Positions 1,460 through 36,836 of a DNA stretch of 36,836 nt are shown here, one piece after another (position 1 is the stretch's first letter; every line of letters begins with the position of its first letter). This DNA is from Planctomycetes bacterium GWF2_41_51. GTDB taxonomy: Bacteria; Planctomycetota; Phycisphaerae; Sedimentisphaerales; UBA12454. The stretch covers positions 1 through 36,836 of the forward strand of contig MHXZ01000041.1 in NCBI GenBank assembly GCA_001825665.1, in the 5' to 3' direction. The position numbers and the translations under genes are program-made. The notes under the pieces are model-generated. The model was not told the DNA's origin. It saw nothing but the letters and a program-made list of their open reading frames with translations, and searched no databases.

Positions 1460-2311
1460 TCAACGACAAACCCGAAATCCGTAATAGCCGTACATGTCGT
1501 TCGGGTAGTCGAAGTTACTGAACGAGACAGTACAGTTGCTGACGCTATAGAGCCAGCAACCGCCGCGGATAACGCGAGAGATATCGAAGACTGTGCTTGT
1601 CCACTCATAGACATTTCCTGCCATATCACACATCCCATAACCATAAGTTCCAAAAGCACCAACAGCGGTTGTGCCATTTGGATGCATCGAATTATAATAG
1701 TTAGCAATGCTGTTGTTTATTGTAGTGCCGCAACCATAGGTGTAACTGCCGTTATAGTCAGCTACTGCTTGCCATTCCCATTCGGTCGGGAGCCGCCAGC
1801 CGTAATAGTTACAGAAAGCTGTTGCTCCATACCAGCTTATATAAGTAACAGGATGGTTCCCAAAGCCAGAATCAACCGTGAACGAGCTACCTGACCAGTT
1901 AATTCTTGCCGCTCCGCCGTAAGTGGCTCCATTGGAAGTATCACCGGCACCAGCAAGATAATAATAGTTCCTACCGGAATAAGAACCGCTAGCCCCTACG
2001 ACATAGCTGCCGCTGATGGTTATATCACCTGAAGCATAGGCGGCGTTGAGATACTGACAATACTGAGCATTGGTGGTCTCATATTTGCTCATTTCTCCGA
2101 TAAAGCCCTCATGGCCGGGAACACCTGTGTCGCTAATAGCGACCCAACTTATATCAGGCTCAGGTATCCCCTCATCCAGCCATTGTTCAGCAAACTTGGC
2201 AAAATCTGCAAAGCCAACTTGGCAGTCACCCGTAAAATCCATTGATGGGCATGCAGCAAAAGATGGAACTGTTATGAAACTAATAAGCATAATTAAAAAT
2301 ATTTTATTCAT
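1460..2311 (-). CDS. Secreted SUMF1 (formylglycine-generating-enzyme-like) domain protein with N-terminal dockerin-like segment
   Basis: A signal peptide (MNKIFLIMLISFITVPSFA) is followed by a planctomycete dockerin-like segment, DFTGDCQVGFADFAKFAEQWLDEG. A SUMF1 fold covers the rest: YETTNAQYCQYLNAAY, VTYISWYGATAFCNYYGWRLPTEWEW, MCDMAGNVYEW, RVIRGGCW and a terminal GYYGFRVCR. True sulfatase-activating enzymes carry a specific Cys pair near this C-terminal region. Here the cysteines do not sit in an obvious copy of that motif, so activation of sulfatases should not be assumed. No sulfatase gene is in the window. The ATG at 2311 is preceded by a strong GGAGGAAGG ribosome-binding site. The protein is probably exported and may attach through the dockerin-like segment. 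Confidence 0.82.
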   Translation of the reverse strand: MNKIFLIMLISFITVPSFAACPSMDFTGDCQVGFADFAKFAEQWLDEGIPEPDISWVAISDTGVPGHEGFIGEMSKYETTNAQYCQYLNAAYASGDITISGSYVVGASGSYSGRNYYYLAGAGDTSNGATYGGAARINWSGSSFTVDSGFGNHPVTYISWYGATAFCNYYGWRLPTEWEWQAVADYNGSYTYGCGTTINNSIANYYNSMHPNGTTAVGAFGTYGYGMCDMAGNVYEWTSTVFDISRVIRGGCWLYSVSNCTVSFSNFDYPNDMYGYYGFRVCR

Positions 2312-2341: not shown

Positions 2342-2961
2342 TTATTTCTTTCTTCTAAATGCTAATAGACCTAAGCCCAAAAACGACAATGTTGCAGGCT
2401 CTGGAATAGCAGCCGCTAAATGCTCTGGTCTAAATGCCTCGGACGGACTCATTGATAGGCTTTGATTCATTAAAGTCTCGCCATTGCCGCCCCACGATTC
2501 GGCAGATGGTCTTGTCGTCCATAATAGGTAGAACCATCTGATGCTATATACAAACTGAAGCGTTCTACCCCCGTGGTGAATTGAAAAGCAGGAATTGCTA
2601 TTGTAAATGGATTTCCATCAATTGTGTATGACATCTGACCTTGAGGACAGGAATCAATTGCGTTTAAACCATTTGAGTTAAAATTTAAAACAAGATAGTT
2701 GCTGGGGCCATTATAATTAAGGGGACGATTGTTTGTTCCAATTAAACTCCAATAATTTTGATTATGATATTCCCATGCCAATTCAGCAATATCTGTTTGC
2801 TTTCCTATAAGGTCAATTATCATAAAATGGTAGTTTACATTCGGTAATGCTGCTATACCGCTGACTCCGGAATTCACTGATTTGGGAGTAGAAGAAACGG
2901 CCTGAGCGAATACCGTTGATAACAGTAAGATTGTTGTAGAACAGATAGCTAATTTCTTCAT
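2342..2961 (-). pseudogene. PEP-CTERM exported protein gene with a frameshift separating the body from the sorting tail
   Basis: The first frame (2470-2961) has a signal peptide (MKKLAICSTTILLLSTVFAQA) and a body of about 140 residues without a recognised domain, ending out of context as NRGAAMARL. Shifting by -1 at about 2517 gives a codon-clean continuation, TTRPSAESWGGNGETLMNQ, then AAIPEPATLSFLGLGLL and AFRRKK, stopping at 2342. That is a complete PEP-CTERM anchor: the PEP motif, a hydrophobic helix and a basic tail, recognised by exosortase systems. The body alone would be secreted without its sorting signal. One deleted base explains the change. It is part of a row of small PEP-CTERM genes, and no exosortase gene is visible here. 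Confidence 0.72.
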
Positions 2962-2980
2962 TTTCTCGTCCTGCCAAAAA

Positions 2981-3478
2981 TTAATCGAAGTTAATCTTTC
3001 TTCTTAATGTTAATAGACCTAATCCGAGAAGGGAAATAGTTGCGGGTTCAGGGATAAAGATTTTGCCCATATCATACATAACAAAATATTCATCAATCAT
3101 GTACATAATAACATTGACCGAATTTATACCTGAAGCAAGGTTTACATTAGCAGTAAGCCATTCGCCATCATCATATGGCCAAGGTCGGGAATCTATCATC
3201 GCCCAAAGCTCACCTTGACCAAAATAAGGAAAATCTGGTAACAATTCTTCATTAGTACAGGCGAAACATGAATCAAGAGGGGCATCTGTTCCTCTTTGAA
3301 AATTACTCAACTGCCCTTTAGTTGAGTTAATAGCGAGTCCAATATACACTATTCCGCCATTTTGTACAAATACTGAAACTTTTTCTGTATTGGCATTGTA
3401 GGTCCCAGTAACTATTGGCATTGCAGTACTTAAGGATGTTACGAAGATAATTAACAACAAAAATAGAATCTTCTTCAT
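2981..3478 (-). CDS. PEP-CTERM exported protein, unknown function
   Basis: The product is 165 residues. It has a signal peptide (MKKILFLLLIIFVTSLSTA), a short beta-rich body containing QNGGIVYIGLAINSTKG and a closing anchor IPEPATISLLGLGLL plus TLRRK. This is the intact member of four small neighbouring genes with this architecture. PEP-CTERM tails are processed by exosortase (EpsH-like) systems and send proteins to the envelope or extracellular matrix. The body resembles nothing I can name; regular substitution of G and N with aromatic residues suggests a beta-sandwich. The neighbours downstream and upstream share the same strand and close spacing. Confidence 0.8.
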   Translation of the reverse strand: MKKILFLLLIIFVTSLSTAMPIVTGTYNANTEKVSVFVQNGGIVYIGLAINSTKGQLSNFQRGTDAPLDSCFACTNEELLPDFPYFGQGELWAMIDSRPWPYDDGEWLTANVNLASGINSVNVIMYMIDEYFVMYDMGKIFIPEPATISLLGLGLLTLRRKINFD

Positions 3479-3499
3479 TTTCTTTCCTATTAAATTAAT

Positions 3500-4164
3500 T
3501 TATTTTTTTCTTAATGCTATTAGACCTAAGCCAAGAAGTGAAAGGGTCGTGGGTTCTGGGATAGGTACACTTACAAACGATTCATAGCCATTTGAAAACT
3601 CACAGTAAAATCCAATTCTGAAAGCACCTGTGTTGATAGCATTTTCAATTCCGTACGAACCTGTAATTACATTTGTACTTAACTTTAAATAAAGAGTTTG
3701 GCCGCCGTGAAGACCATACGCCGGGCTTGATGTATCTGGTATCCTCCCTATTCAAAATCATTATGAAATAACGGTGTAACGTTGGAGTACCCCGGAAGCG
3801 ACTGCTGTGGCGACGTAATAAAATCAAAAACCATACTATAATAATTCAAGTCCCACATCCCAGCTCCTACATAGTGAATATCACTTGGTAAATCCAAAAC
3901 AATCCTCTTTACAGTCATTGACGAAGAGCCGCTATTATGAAATCTAAAGAAAATGCTGGTAGGTGTACCGCTTGGCCATCGGCTATAATCTATATTATCA
4001 GTTGTTGTTTCAAACCAGATTCCATTCTCGCCTGCCAAAGAATTTGCGATATTGTTGTTTGTTATACTCTGTACATGATGAGTATGCCAATTAACAGCAT
4101 AAATTGTGTTATTGCCTAAACTACTCAAAATGAACAAAATAAAAATCAATTTGGAATTCTTCAT
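3500..4164 (-). pseudogene. PEP-CTERM exported protein gene, frameshifted
   Basis: The first frame (3748-4164) starts MKNSKLIFILFILSSLG, a signal peptide. It carries IWFETTTDNIDYSRWPSG and TSIFFRFHNSGSSSMTVKRI, and stops at TAG after LFHNDFE. A -1 shift at that point reads IGRIPDTSSPAYGLHGGQ, TLYLKLSTNVITGSYGIE and IPEPTTLSLLGLGLIALRKK, stopping at 3500. The continuation is about 80 codons, free of stops, and ends in a canonical PEP-CTERM anchor, so the two parts clearly belonged to one gene of about 220 residues. The body looks like a beta-sandwich with no named family. A single-base deletion near 3749-3752 explains the break. Confidence 0.72.
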
Positions 4165-4182
4165 TTTCTTCTCCTTAAAAAA

Positions 4183-4864
4183 TTAGTATTTCTTTCTTCT
4201 TAATGCCAATAGACCCAACCCCAAAATCAAAATCATCGTTGGCTCTGGAATAGGGTAAAATCTATTTCATCCAAACCATTCATTTCCGCAATATCAATAT
4301 AATTATAAGTTCCATTTTGAAGAAGTTTGATGTGACGAATTTTCAAACGTACCACCTCAAAATCAGGAAAATATAACGTTTGCGGAAGTGGTTCAGCCGC
4401 AGAAAATGTGCTTGCATCATAATCTTTAAGTTCAAGCGAAAACACATAAGGATTTACAGGCGGGCTATAAGCTGACCAAGAATGGTACAATCGAAAACTA
4501 TCTATAATTTGTCCATCTCTAAGATAATTATTCTCAACACCGCATCCGGCATGTTCAAAATAGCCTCGGCTGTCGTTATAATTTCGATAAAAAATGTTAG
4601 GGCCAAGCTGAAGCGACCAAGAATAAATGTTGTAGTTGCACAGTGTGCGTGGTTTTGCGTTGTTGGCAGAAAGCCATCCACTCGAAGTGTCATATGTAAA
4701 TTGTCCAAAGATTTGCTGACTGTTATATGTTCCAGACGGCAATTCGGATTCCATGCCCGGTAGAACTCTTAGTGGTGCGTTCCATTGTATAGTCACCAGT
4801 TTGGGGCAGATGTATAATTTACCAATGGAACTAAAATACACAATAAAACGCTTAAGTTTTTCAT
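4183..4864 (-). pseudogene. PEP-CTERM exported protein gene with two frameshifts
   Basis: The natural start is the ATG at 4864, giving the signal peptide MKNLSVLLCILVPLVNYTSA, which runs into TGA after PNW. A -1 shift there continues as VTIQWNAPLRVLPGMESE into a long body of about 180 residues containing FGQFTYDTSSGWLSANN and FSLELKDYDASTFSAAEP. The body frame ends shortly after MNGLDEIDF. A second -1 shift at about 4246 gives YPIPEPTMILILGLGLL and ALRRKKY, stopping at 4183. Thus the export signal, the body and the anchor lie in three frame segments, each disrupted by one missing base. A start for the body alone at about 4880 would lack any signal peptide and is not believable. Confidence 0.72.
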
Positions 4865-4889: not shown

Positions 4890-5756
4890 TTATTTCTTTC
4901 TTCTTAAAGCTATTAAACCTAAGCCGAAAAGGCAAAGGGTTGTGGGTTCGGGGATTACAGCAATTCGAAAACCAGTAAACATGCCTTCATAAGTATCGTT
5001 ATTATAGCGTTGATTGGACGCAGCAAGTCCCGCAGAACCGGAACCGCTCCATGCTCCACCGCAAATATAAACAACTCCACGAACAGGATAAGCTGTTTCA
5101 TTCCATTCCCAGACATTGCCCATCATATCAAATGTACCATTCTGTTCCTGTAAGCCCATACCAACATTCCACGGTGATGAATAAATACTGTAACAAGCTT
5201 CACTTGTTGAAGGTATTGTATTTGTTCCATTGGCATAAAGTGTATAGCTACTACCGTCTGATTTGTAATAAGCAGCTTTATACCATTCATTTATAGTCGG
5301 GAGGACATAAACTTTGCCGTAAGTCTGCTGTGCTGTTTCGCGATTGATACCTTGAAAGTTACCGGGATTAGTGTTATTACCACTGAATTGATATGCACCT
5401 TTGCTCTTGTCGCCGCTTGTTAGATAATTGCAAAATTGAATGGCCTCGTACCAACTTATATTATTAACCGGCTGCTGAGAACCGGTGAAATATGGACTAC
5501 CATCATAAGCCCCATGCGTATTGCCTGTAGGAACGCCGACGGCTGTGATAAAATTATTCCACTGGTCATTAGTTATTTCATATTTGCCAATACGATAATT
5601 ATAGCCAACCGCCCCCCAGCCGGGAGTGCCGTCAATATCAGCAACATTACCTGCATGGTAGATATTTACGAAGTCAATGCTAATGCCCCTGATAACATCT
5701 GCGGAACATAAATTAGAAATGAGAACTATCCCAACAAATATAACAATCTTTTTCAT
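4890..5756 (-). CDS. Secreted SUMF1-domain protein with PEP-CTERM anchor
   Basis: The product is 288 residues with a signal peptide (MKKIVIFVGIVLISNLCSA). It has a SUMF1-type fold: IGKYEITNDQWNNFITA, VNNISWYEAIQFCNYLTSG, YVLPTINEWYKAAYY, GTFDMMGNVWEWNE, a VRGVVYICGGAW strand, and GFRIAV. It ends in IPEPTTLCLFGLGLIALRRKK. The lineage is that of formylglycine-generating enzymes, but most planctomycete copies that carry export and PEP-CTERM signals have no proven enzymatic role, and the Cys pair of true FGE is not evident. A strong AGGAGG ribosome-binding site lies at 5763-5768 and a TATAAT-like box (5778-5783, minus strand) sits upstream. It is probably the first gene of the minus-strand run of PEP-CTERM genes. 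Confidence 0.82.
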   Translation of the reverse strand: MKKIVIFVGIVLISNLCSADVIRGISIDFVNIYHAGNVADIDGTPGWGAVGYNYRIGKYEITNDQWNNFITAVGVPTGNTHGAYDGSPYFTGSQQPVNNISWYEAIQFCNYLTSGDKSKGAYQFSGNNTNPGNFQGINRETAQQTYGKVYVLPTINEWYKAAYYKSDGSSYTLYANGTNTIPSTSEACYSIYSSPWNVGMGLQEQNGTFDMMGNVWEWNETAYPVRGVVYICGGAWSGSGSAGLAASNQRYNNDTYEGMFTGFRIAVIPEPTTLCLFGLGLIALRRKK

Positions 5757-6097
5757 CTTCCTACCTCCTAAAAAATAATTATAGAATTTCTCTGTATTAG
5801 ATTAGTTAGGGAAATGAAAACTTTTCTCCGCCTCCCAGCAGTTAAAGCCTCATTTACAAACAAAGATATATTCTATTCTCTTTTATGAGTTATTCAAGTT
5901 AAAAGTGATTTTCTAAAAGAATTGACTCTGAACCTTCTTCTCTTCTCTCCTCAAATAATCATATAAAAATAGACTGTCAGAGCACTACCTAATTACTAAA
6001 AGTGGGGTAAAGCCGGACGCTGGAACCTAAATTGAGTGAGTTATATACCTATAAAAACATTAAAAAACTTGATTTTTGAAGCAGAAATGAAGATTTT
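5757..6097. other. Intergenic stretch without a recognisable gene
   Basis: This AT-rich stretch contains the ribosome-binding site and a possible -10 box of the downstream SUMF1/PEP-CTERM gene at its left edge and reaches the tRNA fragment at its right edge. I see no open reading frame, repeat or RNA structure between them that I can support. Confidence 0.5.
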
Positions 6098-6271
6098 TTA
6101 GTGGGCGGTACAGGACTTGAACCTGTGGCCTCCTGCGTGTCGAGCAATGCCCGTTTCAAATTCCTGTTTTTTAGCATTTTGTCGTAACTCATTTAACAAC
6201 AATGAGCTACATTTCTCGACTAATTGCAAGTTGTTTCTGAAAAGCTTTGCATTTATTGCGTGGGATTGCAT
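6098..6271 (-). CDS. Small ORF whose C-terminus is encoded by the tRNA fragment; doubtful gene
   Basis: There are 57 codons from the ATG at 6271, reading MQSHAINAKLFRNNLQLVEK and QNAKKQEFETGIARHAGG, and ending HRFKSCTAH inside the tRNA-like sequence. Tails of the type GGHRFKSC are the usual translation of tRNA T-arms. Integrase genes can read into their tRNA attachment site, so this may be the tail of a recombinase fragment. No strong ribosome-binding site is visible, and the start lies within a direct repeat. Confidence 0.25.
   Translation of the reverse strand: MQSHAINAKLFRNNLQLVEKCSSLLLNELRQNAKKQEFETGIARHAGGHRFKSCTAH
6101..6141 (-). other. 3' half of a tRNA, candidate integration (att) site
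   Basis: The minus strand contains GACACGCAGG, then AGGCC, then a perfect T-arm (ACAGG-TTCAAGT-CCTGT) and an acceptor 3' strand ACCGCCC followed by A. This is everything from an anticodon loop to the 3' end of a tRNA. The D-arm, the acceptor 5' strand and the 5' half of the anticodon stem are missing, because the sequence on the other side of the loop does not pair. By position the anticodon would be GAC (Val), though the U33 position is not T, as expected if crossover occurred in the anticodon loop. Tyrosine recombinases typically regenerate or leave such 3' tRNA halves when elements integrate or excise. Confidence 0.6.
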
Positions 6272-6281
6272 CTATTGCGTG
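6247..6281. repeat. Tandem 16-bp direct repeat beside the tRNA fragment
   Basis: TTGCATTTATTGCGTG (6247-6262) and TTGCATCTATTGCGTG (6266-6281) match at 15 of 16 positions with a 3-base spacer, giving a 19-bp period. They lie about 105 bp from the tRNA 3' half. Directly repeated short sites flanking an attachment core are characteristic of integrase arm-binding sites. That role is an inference. Confidence 0.5.
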
Positions 6282-6451
6282 TAATTACGCGCGCAAAGAG
6301 TAGACTACTTCTGGACAACAGAGGTGAGAATTAGAAAACATATCGGTTGTGTCATCGAATTTTGATGTGATCTGGTGATTATTGTTGAATCATTTAAAAC
6401 ATTTTCATATTTTAGCTACCTTCAATCTGTTTTTTCAGCCTGCGGCATGTA

Positions 6452-6767
6452 TTACAATTCTTCTGCTGTCATTAACTTCAAAACACCAAAACCTGTTGTC
6501 GCTCTAATCAGAAGACTATCGTGATTATTAAACCACTGTCTGCCAAGGCACGTCTTTATCTTCTGATATTGCTGAACCTGTATCCGCTGGGCAAGCATTG
6601 AAAACGGGCCATCATATTCGAAACTGGGAACGATGTCGTCTTTTGACTGATATAGCAATTTTAAACGCCTGCCTCATCACCGAAAACATATTAAGACTGA
6701 CAGGCACATACATATTCGCCTCCCATGGATCAAAAAAGATACCATACATTTCGGGCGCAAAATAATA
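6452..6767 (-). pseudogene. Decayed C-terminal gene fragment, possibly an alpha-galactosidase-like glycoside hydrolase
   Basis: From 6767 one frame reads YYFAPEMYGIFFDPWEANMY then VPVSLNMFSVMRQAFK. After a one-base shift at about 6660 it continues LLYQSKDDIVPSFEYDG and PFSMLAQRIQVQQYQK, then RQWFNNHDSLLIRATTG and LKLMTAEEL, stopping at 6452. The run of W-(F/W)-x-N-x-(D/P)-(S/D)-x-L-(L/V)-R followed by KLMTAEE resembles the segment of GH27/GH36 and related TIM-barrel hydrolases in which WWxNDPDxLLxR precedes the TLDE helix. It begins just past the aminotransferase stop, with no start codon or N-terminus, so it is a remnant. The family call is tentative. Confidence 0.4.
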
Positions 6768-6807
6768 TTAATTTTTGGAACTAAATCCTGTATTAAGATA
6801 AATATTT

Positions 6808-8172
6808 CTATTTCCGCAAATCTTTAATCGTCTGGCGAATCACACCGCATCCTTCGATAAGTGCATCTTTGGTTATACACAGAGGCGGAGCTATTTTAAC
6901 ACAGCCGCCGCCAAGGCCCACCGGTGCAAATAACAACAAACCTTTTTGGAAACAAGAATAGATAATATTCCAAGCTAAATCATAATCCGGCTCTTTTGTG
7001 CCTTTCTTTATCATTAGTAAACCGCCGACCAAACCTTCAGCAGGGGCAAAACCGACAACATCAGAAAATTCTTTCTGTATCGATGCAAGCTCACTTTTCA
7101 AAGTTTTGCCAAGCTCCGCGGCATTTTGCACGAGCTTCTCTTGTTCAATTAATTTGATGTTTGCCAAAGCGGCCGAGCAGCAGATAGGATTTGCCGAATG
7201 AGTGCTTGTCATTTCGTTCGGACCATAAAGCTCCATAACATCTGCTCTGCCTATAACGCCGCTAATTGGAAGCGAGCTGCTGAACCCTTTGCCCATACAG
7301 AATAAATCTGGATCAATGCCGTAATGCTCGAACCCCCACCATGTTCCGCATCTGCCGAAGCCTGCCTGAACTTCATCGAAGCAAAGTAACGCCTTGTGAG
7401 CATCGCACCAATTCCGAAGTTTTTGGGCGTATTCTTTCGGCATAAAGTTAGGACCAATACCCTGATAAGTTTCGCTGATAACGCCTGCGACATTGTCAGG
7501 ATTTATTTTCAACTTTAAAAGAGTCTCTTCAAACAAATCGAAACTTATATTCTCATTTCTAAAGCCGTCCGGGAAAGGAACATGAACAATTTCAGGATCG
7601 AGATTTTTTATCCAGGCCCTGCCGCTGCCCAGCGCTCCCATCTGCTGCGAACCAAGAGTTCGGCCGTGGAATGAATCCATGAATGAAACGATGATGTTTT
7701 TTGCATCCGAAATGCTTCTGCCGTAAGTTCTCATCAGTTTCAATGCGCATTCCGTCGATTCGGCGCCGGTGCTCAGGAGAAATACTTTATTGAGTTTTTT
7801 TGGAGAAATATCAACAAGCTTTTGTACCAAATCAATACGCGGCTGATTTGCAAAACAGTAAGTTGTGAGTAAAGGCTTAGATGCCTGTTCAATAATCGCA
7901 TCTGCGATTTCTTTGCGGCCGTGACCGGAGTTGGTAATGAGAACGCCTGACGAAAAATCGAGCCATTTATTTCCATAAGCATCGAAAACATTAATGCCCT
8001 CCGCGTGGTCCCAGATAATCGGAAGCTGTCCCCGCATACTGCGAGCTTCAAACTGGCGCAGTCTGTTTAATTGTTCAATCGTTTGATTATTCGGGATTTT
8101 ACCAGAAATTTTTCTATATTTAGTTTCTACAGGTTTTACATCAACCGACTCAAGTGGAAATTCCTTTGCCAT
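6808..8172 (-). CDS. Class III PLP-dependent aminotransferase
   Basis: The product is 454 residues, normal for the ornithine/4-aminobutyrate aminotransferase fold. PLP-binding signatures are present: STGAEST (134-140), SFMDSFHGRTLG, the FDEVQAGFGR motif with the cofactor Asp near 266, and MGKGFSSS with the Schiff-base Lys near 295. The family moves an amino group between an omega-amine or amino-sugar-type donor and a 2-oxoacid, usually 2-oxoglutarate/glutamate. Specificity cannot be read here. It is the last gene of the gntR-gdhA-oxidoreductase operon. A 23-bp gap to the oxidoreductase and glutamate dehydrogenase in the same operon suggest that glutamate cycles between the enzymes. No signal peptide, so cytoplasmic. 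Confidence 0.9.
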   Translation of the reverse strand: MAKEFPLESVDVKPVETKYRKISGKIPNNQTIEQLNRLRQFEARSMRGQLPIIWDHAEGINVFDAYGNKWLDFSSGVLITNSGHGRKEIADAIIEQASKPLLTTYCFANQPRIDLVQKLVDISPKKLNKVFLLSTGAESTECALKLMRTYGRSISDAKNIIVSFMDSFHGRTLGSQQMGALGSGRAWIKNLDPEIVHVPFPDGFRNENISFDLFEETLLKLKINPDNVAGVISETYQGIGPNFMPKEYAQKLRNWCDAHKALLCFDEVQAGFGRCGTWWGFEHYGIDPDLFCMGKGFSSSLPISGVIGRADVMELYGPNEMTSTHSANPICCSAALANIKLIEQEKLVQNAAELGKTLKSELASIQKEFSDVVGFAPAEGLVGGLLMIKKGTKEPDYDLAWNIIYSCFQKGLLLFAPVGLGGGCVKIAPPLCITKDALIEGCGVIRQTIKDLRK

Positions 8173-17770: not shown

Positions 17771-19733
17771 TTTTATTCTCCGCTGCATCTTCACCGACAT
17801 TATGATGATTAATTACCGTACCATCATCAGATTCATTTCTTTTAATTGTTTTAAGAAGGTTAAACATTTTTTTCAGGTCAATAAGGCCGCCCACTGTAAA
17901 CCATAGTGTTGTAATTATTGAAAGCACAAGAGTCAGGAGCGTATAATACCGCCAAAATACTATCCAGCTTTGAGTTTTAACATCCACGACAAAATTGTAT
18001 ATAGTACCTGCTATAAAAATAGTTATCCACAAACCTGTCCATGCAAAGGTTGAAATGTAAAGAATCTTATCTTTACGAGTAAATTCGCTGCTCATGCCAA
18101 TAATCGAACCGAACCATCCAACCTTTCCTTTTAATGCCGTATTTTCAAGCTTTAAAGAATACTTTCCTCGATGAAGCATCATATCCATATTAAACGACGT
18201 TTTTTTGCCCATCAACGATACTACAATATAAACAACGATAGCACTTATTGACGCAAAGAAACTCAGGATTGCACCGTTGCGCGTAGCGATATAACTCATA
18301 ATAGAATTTGCAAAAGGATAAGATTCATTGATCTGCTTTAAAACCATTCCTGAAACCGCCAAAACAGATCCAGTTATCATCGCTGACCAGGCAGCAGCAG
18401 TCGTACCTCTTTTCCAATACAATCCTCCTATCACAACAGCTCCGGCGCCGCCGGTGAAAATCGCACCGGTAATCATAAAAAACATATAGATATATTCAAT
18501 CTGCCTGAATATGAGACTGAAGAAAAAGATAAAGACTGCCACACCAAAAATTGAAATCTTAAGAAGGTTAAGATGCTGCCTTTGCGTAAAAGGTTTTTTC
18601 CTGAAAGGCATAACAACATCCTGTATGAAGATGCTGCCCCACGAATGCAAATACGTATCATGGTTGCCTATAAACGCCGCCAGCATAACCGCAGCCATCA
18701 TACCTACAATTCCCTTTGGCAGAAAATGCCTCATGGCTATTACTGTAGTCATCTGTTTTTGTATCTGACCATTTGCAATCGAACCTATCGCATCCTGAGC
18801 TTTTTGTGCCGATTCTGCGAAATTGGTATGATGCATAAAAGTATAGGCGCATATTGGTATAATCATCATAAATAAATTCAAAGATAAAATACGCCAGGTA
18901 CTTAATATTTTTCCCATTCTGGCTTCGTGCGCGTTTAATGCTGCCGCGTTATACCCAGCCGACCCCTGCCATACGAGACCTGAATAGAAATATCCAAAAG
19001 CCACAATAAGATAAAACCATATATTGAAATCTTTTGCGTTCTGAGTTTGGAAAGGATGCAGCATCGATGACCCCTGTTGAGCTATTGAAAGCGTTTGAGT
19101 GATTTGCGACCAGTCAAACTTCAATATAACAATGACCATAATGATGACAAATGCAATATTTGTATATACACCCTGCATAAAATCGGTAACGATAACCGCA
19201 ATTTGTCCGCCTACAAATGTAAAATAAAGCGCGAAAACAAGCAATATCGCCATAACAATTGCGTACATAGCGGTGGTATCTGGGAATCCGCAAAAATGTA
19301 TAAAAAATCTCGCGCCGACAGAAGGAAAAATTCCGAAATTTATTACGCCTGAAAGCCATCCAAGCAGACCCGTAAATATTCTGAAGCGTTTGCTGTAACG
19401 TATTTCAAGAAACTGGGCAAGAGTCAAAGCCCGCGTCTGTCGAAACCGATATACAATCCAGCCAGAAAGAAAAACAATTGTAGTTACAAAAATCATTATC
19501 AATTGCCACCAGGCAGCGGTAAATCCTGCCTGATAATACAATTCAAATCCCGCGATAAGACTTATCGAACCAACTCCCGCCATTCCCTGGGAAACACAAA
19601 TCAAATACCTGCCGGCACAGCGATTAGCCGCTAAGAAATCAGCGACGCTTTGTGTATATTTTTTTGTAAAAATCGCCGCTAATGTTATCGCAATCAGTAG
19701 ACTCAAAACGATAACCCAGTCAATCAAATACAT
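17763..19733 (-). CDS. Sodium:solute symporter (SSS family)
   Basis: The product is about 656 residues from the ATG at 19733 (MYLIDWVIVLSLLIAITLAA). At least 13 hydrophobic segments are visible. SSS landmarks include the discontinuous TM1 region around VADFLAANRCAGRYL, GMAGVGSISLIAGFELYY, RQTRALTLAQFLEIRYSKRFR (the conserved R-x-TLAQFLExRY stretch) and GIVGMMAAVMLAAFIGNHDTYLHSWGS with the sodium-site region. SSS carriers import sugars, uronates or amino-sugar derivatives with Na+. It overlaps the GH42-like gene by 8 bases. Its presence instead of a TonB/SusCD pair suggests uptake across the inner membrane of small products. The substrate is inferred only from the neighbours. Confidence 0.9.
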   Translation of the reverse strand: MYLIDWVIVLSLLIAITLAAIFTKKYTQSVADFLAANRCAGRYLICVSQGMAGVGSISLIAGFELYYQAGFTAAWWQLIMIFVTTIVFLSGWIVYRFRQTRALTLAQFLEIRYSKRFRIFTGLLGWLSGVINFGIFPSVGARFFIHFCGFPDTTAMYAIVMAILLVFALYFTFVGGQIAVIVTDFMQGVYTNIAFVIIMVIVILKFDWSQITQTLSIAQQGSSMLHPFQTQNAKDFNIWFYLIVAFGYFYSGLVWQGSAGYNAAALNAHEARMGKILSTWRILSLNLFMMIIPICAYTFMHHTNFAESAQKAQDAIGSIANGQIQKQMTTVIAMRHFLPKGIVGMMAAVMLAAFIGNHDTYLHSWGSIFIQDVVMPFRKKPFTQRQHLNLLKISIFGVAVFIFFFSLIFRQIEYIYMFFMITGAIFTGGAGAVVIGGLYWKRGTTAAAWSAMITGSVLAVSGMVLKQINESYPFANSIMSYIATRNGAILSFFASISAIVVYIVVSLMGKKTSFNMDMMLHRGKYSLKLENTALKGKVGWFGSIIGMSSEFTRKDKILYISTFAWTGLWITIFIAGTIYNFVVDVKTQSWIVFWRYYTLLTLVLSIITTLWFTVGGLIDLKKMFNLLKTIKRNESDDGTVINHHNVGEDAAENKND

Positions 19734-28861: not shown

Positions 28862-31360
28862 ATGTATATGGACAAAAAACTGCCTGATATTTTTATTATT
28901 CCTGATTGTGACCATTCTAAAATAACGGTATGTTTTACTTCATTGCCGGAATACACAAACCTTCACTGGTCAGTTATGGATGGGACAGAGCTTTTCTCTA
29001 AAGGCCTGTCTACAATCAAACCGAATAATAAAATCTGTTTTGACATTGATATGTTTAATTTTATACCGTGGTCTCCGGAACATCCGTGTTTATATACACT
29101 CAAGTTAAAATTCTCCGGCAATTACGACAACCTTGAAGTTTCCAAACATTTTGGTATGCGGAAGTTTTCCATAGAAGGAAAACAAATATATTTGAATAAT
29201 CAACCACTCTTTATTAGAGGTTACATTCGCGGCCGAGATGCTCATGACCATCCCAACTTATTAAATCTTCCACCTGCACAATTCTACGCTAAAAATATCA
29301 GGATGGCCAAAGAACTCGGTTTCAATTTTGTTCGTTTTCATTCACGTGTGCCTTCGAAAGAATTCTTTGAAGCCGCCGATGAACTTGGTATGCTGATTCA
29401 GATTGAGCTTAGAAACTATGATGCGGCAGAACATAATGATTTTCTGACAGACCAGGGGCAAATGCTTGACAAACAAAGATGGATTCAAATTATACAAGCT
29501 CTTCGCAATCATCCATCTTTAATGGTTTATTGCATGGGCTGTGAAATACCCAATAACGGGAAAAATCCCTACACACTCGAAATTTATAATCTTGTCAAAC
29601 AAATGGACCCGACGAGAATTTTTCTCGATAGCTGCGCAAGGGGTGAATTTGATCGCAGTGCTACCGATATAGATGTTCAGCATATGAGCTATTTTTATCC
29701 TTATGGAAAAAACAGAAATATGTTCGAGGATTGCTATAATTGGTCAGTGAACGGTTCAACAAGGGACTTAGAACTGATTACCGAATTCGGCCAGCAGCAC
29801 ATTTGCAAGGTTAAAAGAAATTTATGTACTTCAAGACCGATTATAGCTCACGAAATTTGTCATTATACAGCTTTGCACGATTTGGACAATTTGGAACAAA
29901 AGTTTTCTAAAGCTAATCAGGCAAAACCCTGGTGGCTTGACGAATTGAAAAAACTGGTAAATTTGAAACATTTAGAAAACGATTATCCAATGCTGTTTAA
30001 AGCAAGCAGACATTTCCAGTTCCTTAGCTGGAAATTAGGTCTCGAGGCTGTAAGAATGAGCAAATTACTCTGCGGCTTTCATTTTCTGCAGCTTTCAGAC
30101 ACTGAGAAATATGAAAATAGCAATGGATTATTGGATTGCTTCGATGACCTCCAATTACTGACTCCAGAAAAATTCCTGCAATTCAACGGCCCCACTGTCG
30201 TACTCGCCGATTTGCCGCTAAGGACATTTTTGGAAAAAGAATTTCTGCAAATCCCTGTTGTTCTTTCGCATTTCGATTCGAAAATTAAAGGAACTGCTAA
30301 TTTCTCTTTTACCTTATATGATAAAATCAAAAATAAAATAATAGCCTCCGGCCAGATGGAAAAATTTGATATGAATAAGTTAGGCAGATACGAAATCTGC
30401 CGGGTAGAAATCGAATTGCCCGCAGCAGCCGAGCCGAAAGCATTATCAATTATTTTCAATCTTTCGAATGACGCGAAAACATTTAAAATCGAAAATTCGT
30501 GGGACATCTGGGTATATCCGAACAGGGCCTTAGAAATCGCTCCTTTGGCCTGCACATTTTTAGCGGATATCAATATCACCGGCCGATACCCGCAGATAAA
30601 ATCCTGCGGTTCTGCCGAGAATCCGCAAAAACTGATTATCGCCAATAATTTTAGCAAAGAAATATTTAATCACCTGTCTGATGGAGGTGATGTGTTGATG
30701 TTGTACCGAGTCGGGCAAACACGAGACAGAAAAACTAAAGCACAGAAAGAAAAGTATTATCTGCCGACAACATGGGACAGATTTAAAGCGGTTATATGGG
30801 ATCGTGGAACAAATTGCGGCGGATTTATCAGACAAAGTAATGCGTTAAACAATTTTCCGCATCAGGACTTTATCGATATGCAGTTTTTCGGCCTTATCGA
30901 TGATTGCGACAAAATCGTTCTCGATGATTTCCCCTGCGATATCGAACCTATAATTCAAGGAGTCGATAAAGCGGCACGCGATCGTTTTGATGTTCATACA
31001 TATAAGCTTCGTGGACTTCAACCCAAATGGACTTTAAGAAAATTCGCTTATATGTTTGAAATAAGAGTTGGCCTCGGAAGATTATTCGTAACTGGATTTA
31101 ACTTTACAAAGCTTTCGGAAGGAATTCCCGAAGTTTGCGCGATGTTTGAATCGATTATTAAATATATTAGCTCAGACAGCTTTGCTCCAAAAACATCCAT
31201 CAATCCTGACGAACTGGAAGATTATCTGCTTCGAAAAGGTAAAGAGCCTGCTATTAAAGAACGAAAAATGACTCAGTTCTGGCAGCTCGATGAAGAACCT
31301 CTGGAATCACAGGAATACTGGCATCAAGCTGAACAATATGTTGATGAATCTCCTTGTTAA
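28862..31360 (+). CDS. GH2-family glycoside hydrolase, N-terminally reduced
   Basis: The product is 832 residues and cytoplasmic, because no signal peptide is visible. A short Ig-like domain (about 20-100, SPEHPCLYTLKLKFSG, FGMRKFSIEGKQIYLNNQPLFIRG) leads into a TIM barrel: GFNFVRFHSRVPSKEFFEAADELGML, LRNHPSLMVYCMGCEIPNNG (acid/base Glu228) and TSRPIIAHEICHYTA (nucleophile Glu331). These match the GH2 consensus of beta-galactosidase, beta-glucuronidase and beta-mannosidase. The N-terminal jelly-roll usual in GH2 is absent; an in-frame TAA shortly before the ATG argues against a longer start. The C-terminal 400 residues carry beta-domains. A weak ribosome-binding site precedes the start. The GH20 gene follows 51 bases downstream. 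Confidence 0.85.
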   Translation: MYMDKKLPDIFIIPDCDHSKITVCFTSLPEYTNLHWSVMDGTELFSKGLSTIKPNNKICFDIDMFNFIPWSPEHPCLYTLKLKFSGNYDNLEVSKHFGMRKFSIEGKQIYLNNQPLFIRGYIRGRDAHDHPNLLNLPPAQFYAKNIRMAKELGFNFVRFHSRVPSKEFFEAADELGMLIQIELRNYDAAEHNDFLTDQGQMLDKQRWIQIIQALRNHPSLMVYCMGCEIPNNGKNPYTLEIYNLVKQMDPTRIFLDSCARGEFDRSATDIDVQHMSYFYPYGKNRNMFEDCYNWSVNGSTRDLELITEFGQQHICKVKRNLCTSRPIIAHEICHYTALHDLDNLEQKFSKANQAKPWWLDELKKLVNLKHLENDYPMLFKASRHFQFLSWKLGLEAVRMSKLLCGFHFLQLSDTEKYENSNGLLDCFDDLQLLTPEKFLQFNGPTVVLADLPLRTFLEKEFLQIPVVLSHFDSKIKGTANFSFTLYDKIKNKIIASGQMEKFDMNKLGRYEICRVEIELPAAAEPKALSIIFNLSNDAKTFKIENSWDIWVYPNRALEIAPLACTFLADINITGRYPQIKSCGSAENPQKLIIANNFSKEIFNHLSDGGDVLMLYRVGQTRDRKTKAQKEKYYLPTTWDRFKAVIWDRGTNCGGFIRQSNALNNFPHQDFIDMQFFGLIDDCDKIVLDDFPCDIEPIIQGVDKAARDRFDVHTYKLRGLQPKWTLRKFAYMFEIRVGLGRLFVTGFNFTKLSEGIPEVCAMFESIIKYISSDSFAPKTSINPDELEDYLLRKGKEPAIKERKMTQFWQLDEEPLESQEYWHQAEQYVDESPC

Positions 31361-33263: not shown

Positions 33264-34298
33264 TTATTTTTTAGAAACGGCACTAGAATAACAATGTACA
33301 GCATCTCTCATAGCAAAAATACGATCAAGTGGTACATTCTCACCAAGGTTATGGTCACTTGCAACTATATACCCGCCATTATTCCAAAGTTTTTCTATAT
33401 GTGTTTTTACTTCAGTTTCAACCTGTTTCGGCGTTCCATTGACCAAAATATCATAAACTGAAATATTGCCATGAAATGCTATTTTTGAACCATATTTTTT
33501 GCTAAGTTCATAAATATCCTGAGTACCACCACAGGTTTCGATCGGATTGATTATATCAACTCCCAAGTTGATAATATCTTCAATAATGTCTTTAATACAA
33601 CCATCTATATGTACTGAAACTAAAGCACCATGAGCTTTTACAATAGATATAATATTCTCCAATGATGGATAATAAAACTCTCGAACAACAGCTTTTGAAT
33701 ACATCAGGCCGGTCTTCATACATAAATCTAAAGGTATATGTATCACATCAGCCCCCAATTTCCAATGCAGTTTGAAGTTCTGCCACACAATACTCAGATG
33801 CAATTTTCTGAAAGTCTTTTATGAAATCTGGGCTGTCCATTAAACTCATACTATAATCTAATGGCCCAATTGCCATACTCACAGTTTTCGGAACAAAATT
33901 AACCGCATAGATTAGACCCAGACACGCTTCATAGCAGTGTTCATAAACACTTTTTATTCTTTCTTTAACCTGACTTATATCCGGAAGTATAACTTGTTCA
34001 AGAGCCGCTCGTGTCTTGATTTCTCCATCAACATAACATCTTCTTCCGTGCGCATTCATAAGGTTTTTTCTACCAAGTTCCCACAGATTGGCAAGATAAA
34101 CCATATCACAGCCCAATACTGTATAAAGTTTTACAATGTCGCCTGCAGGAATATCATAAGATCGCAAATCAGGCGTAAAGTTGGTATCTAATAGCCTGTT
34201 TACATTAATATATCAGGGTCATTTTCTTGGAAAGGAACCCCATCGACTGGCAACCTTTTAACGCTATTAATAAATCTGGATTTATCCGGCTTTCTCAT
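33264..34298 (-). pseudogene. Uroporphyrinogen-decarboxylase (URO-D/MtaA-like) family gene with two frameshifts
   Basis: The ATG at 34298 gives MRKPDKSRFINSVKRLPVD, GVPFQENDPD and then a stop. A -1 shift near 34210 continues YINVNRLLDTNFTPDLR into RSYDIPAGDIVKLYTVLG, CDMVYLANLWELGRK and RRCYVDGEIKTRAALEQV. A second shift near 33755 joins ELQTALEIG to ADVIHIPLDLCMKTGLMYS, HGALVSVHIDGCIKDIIED, NPIETCGGTQDIYELS, IAFHGNISVYD and NLGENVPLDRIFAMRDAV. This is a full URO-D-type barrel of about 345 residues, the family that includes uroporphyrinogen decarboxylase and corrinoid methyltransferases. In planctomycetes such genes are often secondary-metabolism or methyl-transfer related. Two indels make it a probable pseudogene. 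Confidence 0.75.
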
Positions 34299-35305: not shown

Positions 35306-35565
35306 TTTTAAGGTTCTCCAATTAGGGTTAATAAAAAATGTTAATCGTCCTAATTGGAGAACCTCTTTTTTATACCCTAAAAAAGCGAGTAATATCTTAC
35401 GTTATCTGAACACATTAAATATCTCATTTTTTAGAATCTTATATAGTAACAGCACTTTTTTATCGTTTCTTTAATTCAGTTAAAATTTTTTTTTATTTGG
35501 CTTTGGATAAACACTTACAACTTTTCACGCGAAAAATCACTGTAATCTACTTTAACAATCAATTC
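35306..35565. other. Intergenic region before the sialidase-like pseudogene
   Basis: Apart from the inverted repeat at 35311-35364 I see no gene, promoter or RNA in this AT-rich stretch. Positions 34299-34401 and 33002-33056 likewise hold nothing I can name. Confidence 0.4.
35311..35364. repeat. Perfect 16-bp inverted repeat upstream of the transposase remnant
   Basis: AGGTTCTCCAATTAGG (35311-35326) and CCTAATTGGAGAACCT (35349-35364) are exact reverse complements separated by 22 bases. It lies 5 bases before the transposase ATG. On the plus strand it is followed by a T-run (CTTTTTTATA), so a terminator is an alternative. Terminal repeats of an IS, or a terminator hairpin, both fit. Confidence 0.7.
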
Positions 35566-36836
35566 TTAATAATTTGAACCTTGGAGACTCGTTGAAACAG
35601 TCCATGTCCAGATATTTGCATCTGGAACTTTTGAAACATCTTCTAATGTAGAACCTCTTGATGTCCAAGAAACATAATCTTCATACCAACTACCATAAAA
35701 TTGACTGCCGTAATCACCATAATAGACACCTTCCTCTTCAATGAATGGACTTATGCATTAACGTCAACACTGACCGTGAATACTTTTACTCGAGTCTAAA
35801 TAATAAATATTCGCTGAACTAACGAAGGAAAGTTATGATCGTAATTTGTAAGAACCCTAAAAGTCGACCAGTCATTAACATCTTTATCAGCTAGAACAGA
35901 CTCACTGGAGGACTCTAACCGTCTTATATAATGGTTATATTAGAATCTAAATCCAGCATAGCCAACATTTGCTTGGGCGATCCTAATACCAGTGTTATAC
36001 ATTTCACCTACACCGCCTTTAAATTTAAATTCAATAGTTGATGGAACGTTTGTATTAATTTTATATGTTCTCCATTGCGAATTCGCATTTGATGAACTAT
36101 CTCCAGATGTAAATGTCTCATACACACCATCATTTATGTCCGCCGTTGCAAACGTCAAGCCTGGCGTATATTCTACATATTTAAAAACATCCCCTTCTTC
36201 ATGAGAAATATAGTCAGAAGTGAATTCTTCAGGAAACTCATTGCACTCCCATATATAATCCCAATAAATATTTGGGTCAGATTCCCTATTTGCAGTTATA
36301 TTAAGATAAAATAAACGATTATTTCCGTCAAATCTATATATTTCATCAAAATCACTTTCAGTTGTCACAAGCAAAATTTTATTTTGCTCAACTTCAGCTA
36401 TAGATGCATAGCTACAGCCCCAGCCTGTATTAGGACCGTTTTCCGGTTCGTAGTCCCAATAAGGCCAACTAACCTTCTTCCAATATTTTCCAGTACCGCT
36501 GAAATCTACAAAAATATCATGGCCAGGACGTGTTCCTGCATGAGCAAGTAATGCTCCATTAGAAAGCAATGTAACATCTGGAGCAACGCCACGCTGGCTA
36601 CCAGGTAAAGGCATCGGACTTGACCAGGTATCCCCTCCATCAGTAGAATAACATTGATTTATGGGCTTTGTAGCTCCGGTCCTATATAAGCATAACAGTG
36701 AGTTATCTTTTAATCTCACCAAAACAGGCTCACCAAAATCAGCTGCTTCGTTTAAATCAGATGCTATAGTGTTTGCCGTCAGGAGAAATGGCACAGTATA
36801 GTCTCTTAAGCTAAGAGAGGGTTTAATGGGTTCTTC
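35566..36836 (-). pseudogene. Sialidase-like (BNR/exo-glycosidase-like) gene with premature stops, 5' end beyond the window
   Basis: The open frame runs off base 36836 (EEPIKPSLSLRDYTVPF...), so the 5' end is missing. It contains ASDLNEAADFGEPVLVRLKD, LLCLYRTGATKPINQ, CYSTDGGDTWSSPMPLPGSQ (a BNR/Asp-box), LLSNGALLAHAGTRPGH and WGCSYASIAEVEQNKILLVT, then ends at TAA after GYAGFRF (35940-35942). The same frame continues YNHYIRRLESSSESVLADKD and VNDWSTFRVLTNYDHN. Frame changes then lead through SSANIYYLDSS, VFTVSVDVN and SPFIEEEGVYYGDYGSQFYG to SLQGSNY, stopping at 35566. BNR folds degrade sialic acid or other sugar polymers or simply bind them. One stop codon and several frame changes mark it as a pseudogene. 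Confidence 0.65.

Follow-up and report, generated by a model that had tools for sequence, protein, structure and literature searches.

Net -1 frame changes separate body from sorting tail in three neighbouring PEP-CTERM genes of a planctomycete contig

Introduction

PEP-CTERM proteins are the substrates of the exosortase (EpsH) system and, in the published account (PMC1569441), are composed of a signal peptide, an orphan body and a C-terminal PEP motif with a hydrophobic stretch and a basic end. The same parts are found in the genome analysed here, which holds 98 tail matches (E up to 10) as well as two exosortase genes (PF09721 matches, E 6.5e-53 and 1.1e-48). The present case differs in that the tail of three neighbouring genes, termed A, C and D, lies out of the frame of the body.

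Bacterial frameshift pseudogenes of the ordinary kind carry small indels, stand among intact neighbours, are found among orphan genes and are accompanied by damage to other families on the contig, all of which is seen here. Genes A, C and D differ from them in having no in-frame stops beyond those made by the shifts. Programmed -1 ribosomal frameshifting shares the net -1 direction with these genes, which differ from it in that no consistent slippery site or stimulatory structure was found.

Results

Organisation of the contig and the gene run

The window (36,836 nucleotides) corresponds to contig C41 in full and belongs to a genome of 4.83 Mb in 138 contigs. Six genes follow one another on the minus strand in the order E, D, C, B, A, F, separated by short gaps that contain start-site leaders (leader repeat D2); judged from these gaps and leaders, the run is probably operon-like. 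Its genes are as follows.

Gene E, 4890-5756, minus strand: FGE-sulfatase domain and PEP-CTERM tail; intact; first gene of the run.
Gene D, 4187-4864, minus strand: orphan PEP-CTERM protein; net -1 change after the signal peptide and another ahead of the tail (4235-4266).
Gene C, 3490-4164, minus strand: orphan PEP-CTERM protein; about 60 body-like residues and the tail follow a net -1 change at 3748-3751.
Gene B, 2981-3478, minus strand: small PEP-CTERM protein of 165 aa; intact.
Gene A, 2342-2961, minus strand: orphan PEP-CTERM protein; the frame of the body (2470-2961) differs from that of the tail (2348-2410) owing to a net -1 change near 2517.
Gene F, 1460-2308, minus strand: FGE-sulfatase domain without a PEP-CTERM tail; intact; last gene of the run.

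The bodies of A, C and D had no Pfam match. Further along the contig, a repeated element of about 270 nt was located at 6127-6395, with a copy at C132:227-506 (87%) and a partial one at C119:2468-2612. It lies beside a stretch resembling the 3' half of a tRNA near 6.1 kb, which was considered as an integration site and rejected, as ARAGORN at default settings found no tRNA in the window and Rfam gave no credible match within 5700-7000. Two other regions, 17815-19672 and 29616-31167, are paralogous with contig C34 (L160) at 83% and 71-78% identity, respectively, and represent a duplicated gene cluster.

Frame changes in genes A, C and D

Three-frame translation combined with interval analysis identified four minus-strand frame changes, all of them net -1. 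In gene A, the body frame ends with a stop at 2472-2470 and the tail frame is open from 2617 (an overlap of 145 nt); a codon model placed the change at 2517, with 2491-2526 lying within 2 nats. The change in gene C is confined to about one codon, since a stop at 3750-3748 closes the body frame directly next to position 3751, where the tail frame becomes open (overlap 1 nt). For gene D, the tail change falls in the interval 4266 to 4235 (31 nt), and the head change in the interval 4889 to 4795 (94 nt), or 4795-4864 if it follows the ATG. The shifts themselves created the only in-frame stops seen in A, C and D.

The tails of the three genes each retain the PEP motif, the hydrophobic stretch and the basic cluster, and scored 28.1 (A), 27.5 (C) and 26.3 bits (D) against the Pfam PEP-CTERM cut-off of 20.7. 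In B and E, the tail continues the frame of the signal-peptide-bearing body; in A, C and D it does not. The preliminary description had claimed that three of four small PEP-CTERM genes were split by a -1 change, that D bore an additional one just after its signal peptide, and that the displaced tails were still perfect anchors; the two methods agreed on the first point, and the D head interval and the tail scores bore out the other two. The count of three in four applies to A-D, as the flanking FGE-type gene E is also an intact PEP-CTERM gene.

PEP-CTERM genes across the genome

An in-frame start and a signal-peptide-like stretch were present in 85 of the 98 PEP-CTERM matches. The other 13 comprised A, C and D, four truncated by the edge of a contig or of the stretch examined, one that we judged spurious, one with a signal peptide that lacked a usual start codon, two remnants of tails, and another two genes with a broken frame (C40:834 and C34:31144). 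The two remnants, L082 (C37:5416-5484) and L095 (C125:97201-97266), are PEP-CTERM tails without a proper gene start that lie behind other genes, and they look like leftovers of former genes; they are 5.4 kb and about 23 kb from contig ends.

Once the edge cases (four) and the spurious match had been set aside, 93 assessable matches were left. Frame-broken genes made up three of six on this contig, compared with two of 87 on the other contigs (Fisher p = 0.0015). All five were situated within 5 kb of a contig end (5/32 vs 0/61, p = 0.004, with the cut chosen afterwards); cuts of 1.5, 3 and 10 kb gave p = 0.06-0.08, and the 5-kb contrast without this contig was 2/27 vs 0/60 (p = 0.09).

Damage at the other end of the contig

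Frame damage was also observed in two genes outside the PEP-CTERM family, at the opposite end of the contig.

UroD-family gene, 33264-34280, minus strand: frame changes of -1 (about 34212) and +1 (33760-33752).
BNR-domain gene, 35320-36794, minus strand: open over 35940-36794 (284 aa), followed by stops and one or more frame changes.

The UroD-family gene is readable in three pieces, and the stretches on either side of its +1 change match adjoining parts of a single intact relative (L197). The genome has 13 further UroD matches, all of them within open frames of 333-458 aa. Relatives of the BNR-domain gene span its intact part alone, so its frame changes could not be mapped by homology. The final 71 nt of the contig have a 96% match at the beginning of contig C27.

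No frame change was seen in the 25.6 kb of coding DNA between the two damaged zones. If the six counted changes were spread evenly through the coding DNA, all of them would fall at the two ends with P = 8e-5 (post hoc); the BNR damage comes on top of them. In the two damaged zones, neither the genes with conserved domains nor gene B had been hit, for which the chance was 0.024 in the left zone and 0.008 in both (post hoc, with BNR left out); computed for A-D alone, the chance was 0.41 (post hoc). Among the 39 GFO_IDH_MocA matches in the genome, 37 were open over at least 288 aa, one was cut by a contig end and one ran into unrelated DNA near a contig end.

Contig-end scan and the possibility of consensus error

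A consensus sequence may retain uncorrected single-base indels locally, here at the two ends of the contig, with the genes intact in the organism. This is the strongest alternative to gene decay and a serious one, which we hold to be somewhat short of an even chance. It is consistent with changes at both ends and a clean interior, with the opposite signs of the two changes within the UroD gene, with the lack of in-frame stops in A, C and D other than those due to the shifts, and with the location of every frame-broken PEP-CTERM gene of the genome, five in all, no farther than 5 kb from the end of its contig.

An error of this kind acting generally near contig ends was examined by scanning 60 other ends (900 kb) with a detector that recovered 124 of 400 simulated deletions. 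The scan returned 40 candidate frame changes over the full range of distances, including 13 in the outermost 5 kb (300 kb). By distance, the first kilobase held six (60 kb), the second two and the third one, followed by 0.03-0.06 per kb. Corrected for sensitivity and with all candidates counted as real, the background is about 0.14 per kb, compared with four changes in 2.5 kb here; the other ends are far below the density found at 2.3-4.9 kb of this contig, which speaks against consensus error. An earlier version of the scan, with 16 candidates, gave the same answer. A general contig-end error with a steep excess in the first kilobases was rejected, as the 60-end sample showed no steep rise.

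The small rise in the first kilobase was not trusted in view of the candidates inspected: L166 is a CRISPR-like direct-repeat array at the start of its contig (C8, first 1 kb), L128 is a broken transposase-like frame and L140 looks intact. L127 is real: within the last 2 kb of C119, an epimerase-like gene has a -1 change 1 kb from the end, which favours consensus error, and a MocA-type gene is truncated. The same contig has two intact UroD genes at a distance of 0.2-1.3 kb from its start, and, like the intact conserved genes within the end zones of the present contig, they argue against consensus error.

Relatives and literature

The preliminary description had proposed a comparison of orthologues, and this was carried out in 59 genomes; it yielded no useful relative of the bodies. 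At E 0.001-0.01, the bodies of A, C and D had none in these genomes, except for a weak 36-residue match to C (E 0.0039). Gene D had no relative in a genome contig collection from which records close to the source genome may be missing. Relatives of gene E elsewhere (among loci L032-L050) had no small PEP-CTERM neighbours within 2-3.7 kb, as judged by a text pattern. Eight relatives gave 336 PEP-CTERM matches; among the matches listed, four tails were in frames shorter than 100 aa, of which three were situated at a contig end and the fourth had a transposase-like frame for a neighbour, and no body and tail arrangement resembled that of A, C and D.

Among the papers searched, none joined PEP-CTERM with frameshifts and none dealt with contig ends together with frameshifts, and four mentioned PEP-CTERM along with phase variation. 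For frameshifting and sorting signals, a single paper on localisation prediction surfaced.

Signatures of recoding and phase variation

Programmed -1 ribosomal frameshifting would set the ratio of free to anchored protein. The -1 direction of all four changes and the undamaged appearance of the tails accord with this, as does one in-phase X_XXY_YYZ heptamer, C_CCA_AAC, at 4805-4799 in the D head interval. It was the only one in the four intervals, and 0.63 such heptamers are expected by chance over the 90 overlap codons, based on 48 in 6842 codons of the intact minus-strand genes of the window. The earlier statement that the four change points share no obvious slippery heptamer needs amending for this one site, and the count is not above chance. 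The one-codon interval of gene C contains no slippery site, and the downstream sequences folded no better than their shuffles (z = -0.79, 0.97, 1.36 and 1.33, pseudoknot-free). A change right after the signal peptide would give no choice between free and anchored forms, the UroD and BNR genes are broken as well, and there was no similar case in the eight relatives among the matches listed. Programmed frameshifting is very improbable.

Phase variation, in which slippage at repeats or DNA recombination would move the tail in and out of frame, is equally hard to credit: a 67-nt direct repeat common to the four tails (72-81% identity to the reference copy) makes inter-tail recombination conceivable, and one report places PEP-CTERM genes in the set that is enriched near invertons of gut bacteria (PMC11892184), but no tandem repeat was detected at score 30, the longest run within genes at the change intervals was 5, the inverted repeats were imperfect, measured 15-17 nt and lay some 1 kb or more from each other, and recombination within the aligned tails would preserve the frame. 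It is likewise highly unlikely that the -1 changes act as a population-level or translational switch between release and exosortase-dependent membrane sorting of the neighbouring surface proteins. Among the explanations offered at the outset, decay and sequencing error fit the data, and recoding or phase variation found no support in the heptamers, folds or repeats or in the damage outside the PEP-CTERM family.

Discussion

The reading that we favour, at about even confidence, is that A, C and D lost their frames through accidental, unprogrammed and recent gene decay. The fact that the 60 other ends show no general end effect and that the conserved genes in the damaged zones were spared leads us towards it. 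It is further supported by the breakage of non-PEP-CTERM genes (UroD, -1 and +1, and BNR) while the 13 other UroD matches are open, by PEP-CTERM decay elsewhere in the genome in the form of two remnant tails and another two genes with broken frames, by bodies that, the one weak C match aside, have no relatives in 59 genomes, and by the repeated element of about 270 nt that borders the left zone. Other observations argue against decay. With four indels and no other in-frame stop, A, C and D show few substitutions; six changes, together with the BNR damage, are gathered at both ends of a single contig, as they would be in local consensus error; and no frame-broken PEP-CTERM gene is farther than 5 kb from a contig end.

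Under gene decay, A, C and D would be fast-turnover orphan PEP-CTERM genes in accessory DNA, in which small indels (net -1) cut the bodies off from their sorting tails. The losses would be recent, since the tails still look perfect. The products of A and C would be secreted without an anchor, and that of D would be a short peptide ending just past the signal peptide. We infer that the changes are present in the DNA of the organism, rather than being an artefact of the consensus, and that the organism can do without the proteins.

Were the switch true, it would be a new route for choosing between free and anchored secretion. If the frame breaks are due to decay or error, their importance is minor, and they would show that frame breaks clustered in a draft assembly ought to be verified in the reads before recoding is invoked. 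Should the changes prove real, the PEP-CTERM model (PMC1569441) would predict that the A and C bodies are exported anchorless and bypass the two exosortases, and that D gives only a short peptide. For the PEP-CTERM family, decay or error would point to a quick turnover of its genes.
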